A DNA stretch of 64,000 bases from the NCBI RefSeq assembly GCF_013375535.1, contig NZ_JABXJG010000001.1, positions 1,612,001-1,676,000 on the forward strand, given 5' to 3'. The notes under the pieces were generated by a model. It was not told the DNA's origin. It saw only the letters and a program-made list of their open reading frames with translations, and did not search any database. Made by a program: the position numbers and the translations under genes. This document shows, piece after piece, positions 43,069 to 44,466 of this stretch (the stretch's first letter is position 1; each line of letters begins with the position of its first letter). The stretch comes from Sphingobium sp. 15-1. GTDB lineage: Bacteria > Pseudomonadota > Alphaproteobacteria > Sphingomonadales > Sphingomonadaceae.

Positions 43069-44466
43069 CTATTCCAGCGCGGCGACGGCAGCGGCGAAGG
43101 CATCGCCCCTCGCCTCGAAATCGCGGAACTGGTCGAAACTCGCACAGGCAGGCGACAGCAGCACCACATCCCCCGGCTGGGCCACCCGCGCTGCGCGACG
43201 AACGGCGGCGGATAGCATTTCCGAGTCATCCACCGCCATAGCGCCACGCAACAGCTCAGCGAACATAGGCCCCGCTTCACCGATGGTGTAGGCCTGCGCG
43301 ACATGGCCGAAATAAGGGACGCACTCGTCGAGATTGTCGGTCTTGGCAAGGCCGCCGACGATCCAGTGCAGCCGCTTGCGCCCCTCGACTGGCGGATAGG
43401 CGGCCAGAGCGGGCGCGGTCGAGGCGGCGTTGGTCGCCTTGCTGTCATTGACGTAGAGGACGCCGTTCAGCTCCCGCACCCGCTGCATCCGGTGCGGCAG
43501 GCTGGCATAGCTTTGCAGGCCCTTCTCGATGGTCGCTTCATCGATACCGAGCGCCTTTGCCACCGCAATCGCAACGGCAGCGTTCTGGGCATTGTGCGGA
43601 CCTTGGAGGGACGGCCAACCGGCTTGTGCGTCGGGATTGATGTCGCTCGACTGCACCTCCACAACCCCGTCATCCCCGCGAAGGCGGGGATCCATCTCCC
43701 GAGCGTCGCGTCCAGATGCAAGGTCCGGAGATGGATTCCCGCCTCCGCGGGAATGACGGACGGAAGAAAGAATCGCACGACTCGGCTCATCCTCCGTAGC
43801 AATCACCGCGACATGTCCCGCCGACTGCATGTCGAACAGCCGCGCCTTGGACGCCACATAGCCCTCAAAGCCATTATAGCGGTCCAGATGATCCGGCGTG
43901 ATATTGAGCAGCACCGCCACGTCGCAATCGAGGCTCTGCGTCAGGTCGATCTGATAGCTCGACAGCTCCAGCACATAGACGCCGCCCTCCGGCAGCGGGT
44001 CCTGCCCCAGAATCGGCAGCCCGATATTGCCGCCCATGCGGGTCGGAATGCCCGCCGTCTCGATGATATGATGGACCAGCGCCGTAGTGGTCGACTTGCC
44101 GTTGGTGCCGGTGATCCCCACCACCCGATGCCCAGGCAGCGCCGGGCGAGCCAGCGCGAACAGCTCTATGTCACCGATGACCGGCACGCCTGCCAGCTTC
44201 GCATGCATGGCGATCGGATGCTTGTTGAGCGGCACGCCGGGCGAAACCACCACGCCATCGAAGCCCTTGAGGTCGATCTCCGTCGGATCGCCCAGCTCCG
44301 CCTTGCCCGCGACGGCGGCGCGGGCTTCATCGCGACTGTCCCAGGCGACGACCTGCGCTCCGCTCGCCGCCAGGCATTCGACCGTGGCCAGGCCGGAACG
44401 CGCCAACCCCAGCACCGCATACCGTTTGCCCGCAAAGACGTCCGAAATGATCCCCATGGCGCTCAC
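43069..44466 (-). CDS. murD: UDP-N-acetylmuramoylalanine--D-glutamate ligase, with an in-frame repeat insertion
   Basis: Adds D-Glu to UDP-MurNAc-Ala. It is 465 aa. Seen: VLGLARSGLATVE (N-terminal Rossmann), VVSPGVPLNKHP, TGTNGKSTTTALVHH (Walker A), LELSSYQID, NITPDHLDRY and YVNDSKATNAAST. Residues about 235-268 (SSVRHSRGGGNPS...RLRGDDGV) are not MurD sequence: they are encoded by a 93-bp palindromic repeat, without frameshift or stop. They fall in the central domain after the DEPSRAIL segment and before GPHNAQNAAVAI, probably a surface loop. Without them the length is about 432, nearer the family norm. The start overlaps the mraY stop (ATGA). Confidence 0.96.
   Translation of the reverse strand: MSAMGIISDVFAGKRYAVLGLARSGLATVECLAASGAQVVAWDSRDEARAAVAGKAELGDPTEIDLKGFDGVVVSPGVPLNKHPIAMHAKLAGVPVIGDIELFALARPALPGHRVVGITGTNGKSTTTALVHHIIETAGIPTRMGGNIGLPILGQDPLPEGGVYVLELSSYQIDLTQSLDCDVAVLLNITPDHLDRYNGFEGYVASKARLFDMQSAGHVAVIATEDEPSRAILSSVRHSRGGGNPSPDLASGRDAREMDPRLRGDDGVVEVQSSDINPDAQAGWPSLQGPHNAQNAAVAIAVAKALGIDEATIEKGLQSYASLPHRMQRVRELNGVLYVNDSKATNAASTAPALAAYPPVEGRKRLHWIVGGLAKTDNLDECVPYFGHVAQAYTIGEAGPMFAELLRGAMAVDDSEMLSAAVRRAARVAQPGDVVLLSPACASFDQFRDFEARGDAFAAAVAALE
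43667..43759. repeat. Palindromic repeat inserted in frame within murD
   Basis: Two inverted 33-bp arms (43667-43699 and 43727-43759) differ at three positions, with a 27-bp centre. The arms match the GTCATCCCCGC hairpin family that is intergenic at 28000-28027. All 93 bp (31 codons) are read through in murD. Confidence 0.92.

Follow-up and report, generated by a model that had tools for sequence, protein, structure and literature searches.

A recurrently occupied MurD loop in Sphingobium: CGTC-tagged REP dimers of several types at one likely target of repeated invasion

The murD gene of Sphingobium sp. 15-1 contains, in frame, a palindromic REP dimer, built from a CGTC-tagged repeat that also occurs at dozens of sites elsewhere in the genome. 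The insertion is not a lone event, as the same site in relatives holds other repeat types and collapsed remnants. It is likely that one tolerant loop of MurD has been invaded repeatedly by small mobile repeats. The best-known examples of palindromes within protein genes come from Rickettsia. The present case concerns a free-living, cultivable group in which many species can be compared with the site filled, collapsed or empty, and an enzyme that is well studied and has homologues of solved structure.

A REP dimer in frame within murD

We analyzed a stretch of 64,000 nucleotides (the window), in which the following features were located.

43069..44457, minus strand: murD, 462 residues, from the open reading frame and profile match; ATG start at 44457 (the mechanical open reading frame begins 3 codons earlier)
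43667..43759, minus strand: type-A REP dimer in frame in murD, 93 bp or 31 codons (RHSRGGGNPSPDLASGRDAREMDPRLRGDDG region)
43667..43702: inverted arm, the 3' arm in the reading direction of murD, from the inverted-repeat search
43703..43723: centre of the dimer, from the same search
43724..43759: inverted arm, the 5' arm in the reading direction of murD, from the same search
28001..28026: copy of the murD repeat outside murD, in single-hairpin form, from a pattern match in the window

The predicted protein scores 364.6 bits against TIGR01087 (cut-off 212) and has the MurD fold, which places it among MurD proteins. The MurD protein record of the same genome has 462 residues as well, and the nearest named MurD, from Sphingobium indicum, is 93% identical. 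A second murD copy was ruled out, as the genome contains a single murD match. The initial annotation had described arms of 33 bp with 30 matching positions. We reproduced these arms and their 3 mismatches from the sequence, over a span of 93 bp, and the inverted-repeat search returned arms of 36 nt that are 89% complementary and spaced by 21 nt (43667-43702 and 43724-43759). The claim that the palindrome is inserted without a stop holds as well: the minus-strand reading frame is open across it, and this reading frame is MurD. A further copy had been placed near 28000-28027; it is real, at 28001-28026, though a single hairpin rather than a dimer.

Read inwards from its outer end, the type-A element has CGTC, an 8-bp stem capped by a 4-base loop, and a CCA tail; next comes a centre flanked by another inverted repeat, and then the mirror image. 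Its outer ends are CGTC and GACG and its inner ends CCA and TGG, which are the tag and tail of the CGTC superfamily. The hairpin (ATTCCCGC, a 4-base loop, GCGGGAAT) likewise agrees with the superfamily, for which we used a stem of 8-9 bp in which positions 1 and 2 are A-T pairs, and a loop of 4-5 bases.

The arm pattern matched four times in the window, compared with 0.09 matches expected, and none of 100 shuffles reached four. Across the genome there were 103 matches at up to 2 mismatches (49 forward, 54 reverse) and none for the reversed control; 103 is not a copy number, because a lone hairpin is matched on each strand and the pattern also picks up some type-B arms. Relative to shuffles, the folding z-score of the palindrome is -6.7 as DNA and -8.9 as RNA. 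The window shuffles, the genomic copies with none in the control and the folding z-scores reject a chance palindrome. Because the repeat has copies elsewhere in the genome, and dimers also lie in frame at this position in other genomes, we regard the probability of a chance palindrome or an assembly artefact as negligible.

The 55 sites that we read (places among the arm matches listed) yielded 37 inverted dimers with outward tags, types A and B pooled. Most B dimers in this genome are shorter by about 9 bp. Bases immediately beyond the dimers are pyrimidine-rich on the left and purine-rich on the right (493 of 740 positions, compared with 307 of 592 further out). For a third type, C, the genome contains 262 exact matches to the half-site.

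Other repeats were observed in the window. C-type dimers (TGCTCCTGCG) lie at 12634-12717 and 60977-61059. Another inverted-repeat family, with the core TTCGACARGCTCAG, occurs at 63595-63660 and at 40648, the latter copy between two genes that, by their motifs, are presumably murG and murC; in some relatives this family occupies the loop of an aminotransferase described below. At gathering thresholds, Rfam returned only a glycine riboswitch (window 29814-29913, minus strand).

MurD has a single hypervariable stretch, namely this insertion segment. The initial annotation had proposed a loop, and the structure model is consistent with this: the segment is the longest of three stretches with pLDDT <50, a very low confidence that is typical of disordered loops. 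The prediction is that the insert is translated and forms a disordered loop, about 31 residues long, which the enzyme would tolerate.

One site in murD across the genus

The same-genus dataset comprised 94 genomes, our own included. For 92 of them murD was matched, and the site was readable in 91; G003 was left out because the anchors failed there. Typing by eye assigned a REP dimer to 20 of the 91 genomes, a collapsed remnant to 6 and neither to 65, some of which may hold older remnants. The insert is therefore absent from most relatives, which was the comparison that the initial annotation had called for. It had also named conservation of the segment across most sphingomonad MurDs as evidence against an insertion; in the genomes read, the segment did not show such conservation.

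The 20 dimers comprise 10 of type A, 5 of type B, 2 of type C, 2 of a C variant and 1 of a fourth type, D. The four arm types have their own spacings and all lie within 2-3 bp of one point; the outer junctions of A and B are alike, and those of A and C differ by 2-3 bp. In all 20 dimers the reading phase of the 5' arm is identical, while the 3' arm of the C and D types is in another phase. The centres of the type-B inserts are similar to one another. Decayed palindromes were found in five genomes (G043, G044, G045, G087 and G082). Among the 120 nearest MurD proteins listed, a list that favours inserts like that of the query, 35 have a repeat signature in the loop and none has one outside it. 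By window lengths and inspection of long cases, no REP insertion elsewhere in MurD was noticed among the 91 genomes. Two murD genes show other irregularities: one in a draft genome (L204, from G055) appears frame-shifted towards its 3' end, and that of G047 has an N-terminal oddity.

Collapsed forms are visible in both proteins and DNA. Two S. chlorophenolicum MurDs are separated by a 21-residue in-frame gap within the repeat and are otherwise identical at 431 of 440 positions, and the same 21-residue gap separates P0002 from P0007. In the DNA of G019, the tree sister of G021, one hairpin is left, with CGTC and GACG ends. One arm was probably lost by deletion between the GCGGGAA tracts of both arms, which would leave an in-frame single hairpin. 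A comparable situation is described for P. fluorescens, where GTAG-1 singletons are mostly dimer remnants (PMC3733652, section 14).

Beyond the genus, a D-like palindrome was found at this MurD loop on one contig of Sphingomonas (L103), in another reading phase. For MurD proteins related to it (120 listed, 84 anchored), repeat signatures occur at the loop in 17 of the 84, in another phase, and peptide signatures outside the loop in 3. In the wider family, 388 of 397 searched genomes have a match; among the best 30, of which 25 were readable, none had a palindrome by threshold and none a repeat-like peptide by eye, a weak negative because the threshold also missed the decayed dimer of L060. The evidence outside Sphingobium consists of one DNA locus and protein signatures, so that a reach beyond the genus is thinly shown.

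Turnover at the site: insertion or conversion

We built a tree of 91 rows from the murD flanks, without the insertion site. Type A requires a minimum of 9 changes on this tree, type B 3, type C 2 and the C variant 2. All states together require 23 changes, compared with a mean of 25.4 for shuffled states, and 5 of 200 shuffles were as low, which indicates weak clustering; these change counts cannot separate gain from loss. Trees that force all carriers of one type into one clade were rejected for A (p 1e-34) and for B (p 3e-10).

One clade of five genomes contains an A dimer (G056), a B dimer (G062), a C dimer (G085), a remnant of A (G091) and a remnant of C (G022). Its support is 100/100, and 100/97 when only 300 bp on each side are used (89 rows). 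With 150-bp flanks, the nearest neighbor of each of the five, on either side, is a fellow member of the clade. We considered gene-scale transfer as a cause of the mixed types and rejected it for this clade, as the 150- and 300-bp flanks stay with the five genomes.

The type of repeat in murD tracks the REP type that is common in that genome. After exclusion of the copy in murD itself, carriers are richer in their own type for A (p 0.011), B (p 7e-5), C with its variant (p 0.039) and D (p 0.016, where D is one genome), p values that ignore relatedness and the four tests made. In the D carrier (G077), the patterns used gave 67 further D matches and none of type A or B. Total genomic copies are also higher in carriers (median 49.5, compared with 11 in the 65 others; p 1.4e-5), and none of the 20 carriers has five copies or fewer, compared with 26 of the 65 others. 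Two genomes are rich in copies and lack a murD dimer: G067, with 49 type-A matches, and G057, with 44.

We think it fairly probable that the loop is a recurrent landing place, in which CGTC REP dimers insert in frame into murD, collapse, decay and are replaced, and which the enzyme tolerates. Dimers would arrive, lose one arm, decay and be replaced by dimers of the REP type present in that genome. Since murD is essential, and is present as a single copy here, selection would retain only the in-frame arrivals.

Fresh insertion has a serious rival in local recombination or conversion. The site may go back to one or a few old insertions. Conversion from other genomic REPs would later have changed their type in situ, and exchange of the short loop segment between species would have spread or removed them, with no repeated insertion. 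We consider this account possible, if rather doubtful. It is consistent with the identical outer junctions of A and B, and the similar centres of the type-B murD inserts would fit one origin. It also fits G013 and G080 (L173 and L172), whose loops are more alike (93%) than their flanks (88-89%). Against it, the four arm types have their own spacings, and most B dimers elsewhere in our genome are likewise about 9 bp shorter. The 150-bp flanks stay within the five-genome clade although the element type differs, and the types in murD and in the aminotransferase differ within a genome (G085, G021). Finally, the homology between arms amounts to about 26 imperfect bp, which is little for conversion.

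The MurD loop also changes segment-wise in species without REPs (13 pairs picked by eye). In the sisters G024 and G001 (L208 and L170), for instance, the loops are 47% alike and the flanks 96% and 88%. Because the segment changes even where there are no REPs, part of the patchiness of the site may be due to exchange between species. L166 and L207 (G017 and G076) are a further pair in which the loop changes as a short segment. Loop change far exceeds flank divergence, and one loop appears common to separate clades.

A third account holds that the repeat is retained as a useful RNA hairpin or peptide, for example for mRNA stability in the cell-wall gene cluster or for tuning of MurD. The very stable predicted RNA hairpin would fit this account, as would the repeat-like peptides, in another phase, in the MurD proteins related to the Sphingomonas locus. 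We nevertheless judge it very improbable, because types, collapsed forms and repeat-free sites alternate among close relatives, and do so in other enzymes too, which argues for tolerance.

Other enzymes, known systems and the moving enzyme

In our genome, 4 of the 55 sites lie in frame within a Pfam domain: those in murD, a class-V aminotransferase (cysteine desulfurase-like), CobN and a GH35 beta-galactosidase, the last of which contains a single hairpin. The survey covered types A and B and scanned 24 of 26 candidate open reading frames of at least 170 residues, the other two being murD and its antisense. Two reading frames with Pfam hits (L247 and L252) were not counted because the repeat lies upstream of the domain. 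The A dimers inside protein domains (L013, L009 and L259) all have lengths divisible by 3, compared with 13 of 30 surveyed A dimers including these three, which are small numbers.

The aminotransferase was matched in 91 of the 94 genomes. Among the best 30 of the 91 matches, 29 of which had the anchor, 17 carry a palindromic dimer: 9 of type A, 3 of type B and 5 of a sequence-unrelated family (PVRAEPVEA...STGSGRT). When the 120 homologues listed were sorted by pattern, 15 fell under A, 12 under B and 8 under the unrelated family; 24 were possible remnants and 61 had none. CobN was matched in 36 of the 94 genomes, and the best 30, examined by peptide, comprise 3 with a dimer (G000, G010 and G021), 3 with a collapsed hairpin and 24 with neither. 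For both enzymes, sampling the best 30 favours carriers. The types in murD and in the aminotransferase of one genome can differ: C and A in G085, B and A in G047, and A and the unrelated family in G021.

It is a finely balanced possibility that such sphingomonad loops (in MurD, the aminotransferase and CobN) are fixed docking sites, where dimers, in the aminotransferase even from families unrelated in sequence, would land in frame at a fixed set of codons, shrink to single hairpins that possibly guide the next arrival, and be replaced. If so, mobile repeats would keep rewriting one loop of housekeeping enzymes.

Several known systems resemble the murD element. A REPIN is formed by two inverted REPs that are dispersed as one unit, and the murD element shares this dimer build. 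It differs from REPINs in its tag, CGTC instead of GTAG, and in the lack of the expected RAYT gene above the cut-off in its genome.

CGTC repeats have a CGTC tag, an 8-bp stem whose first two pairs are A-T, a 4-base loop and a CCA tail (Di Nocera, De Gregorio, Rocco 2013, PMC3733652). They are frequently dimers, mostly alphaproteobacterial and in some cases intragenic, and the set includes S. chlorophenolicum (PMC3733652). The murD element shares the tag, stem, loop, tail, dimer form and intragenic placement. The superfamily is said there to form mostly head-to-head dimers, an order term that the cited sections leave undefined; the dimers counted here have their tags outward.

Rickettsia palindromic elements are palindromes in frame within protein genes (PMC10969869), as found here in murD, the aminotransferase and CobN. 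The parallel drawn in the initial annotation proves closer than supposed: R. conorii RPE-4 and RPE-6 are placed among the CGTC repeats (PMC3733652, section 6), a kinship that comes from this source and not from sequence comparison. The Rickettsia elements belong to another genus, and the part of PMC10969869 cited here mentions no replacement of one repeat type by another at a given site. At about one site in recB, two Xanthomonas species have different REPs (PMC3733652, section 15).

As REPs within genes are already published, RPE-4 and RPE-6 among them, the kind of insertion is known. Among the literature matches listed, no paper concerned REPs in murD. The words murD and Mur ligase are absent from the main text of PMC3733652, a scope outside which its supplementary intragenic list (Additional file 3) falls. 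Its cited sections note neither type turnover at one coding site across a clade nor collapsed intermediates in sister species. Against these sections and the literature matches listed, repeated occupation, collapse and type replacement at fixed enzyme loops looks new. It is now testable what moves CGTC repeats and what size of loop insertion an essential enzyme tolerates, as is the role of mobile DNA as a regular source of new protein segments.

The dimer was likely placed in murD by a putative transposase acting in trans. A dedicated RAYT was rejected as the mover, since none was found in our genome above the cut-off (best 42 bits, compared with 80), and only 1 of the 94 genomes has one. The genome has five Y1 transposase matches, near which there was no good A or B arm, only two hits with 3 mismatches. 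Among these Y1 genes, the only transposase genes examined, the lack of good A and B arms would fit the published view that CGTC repeats do not accompany transposase genes (PMC3733652). At one Y1 transposase gene (L033), two exact C-type arms lie about 1 kb to either side, an arrangement that may be due to chance, given the abundance of copies.
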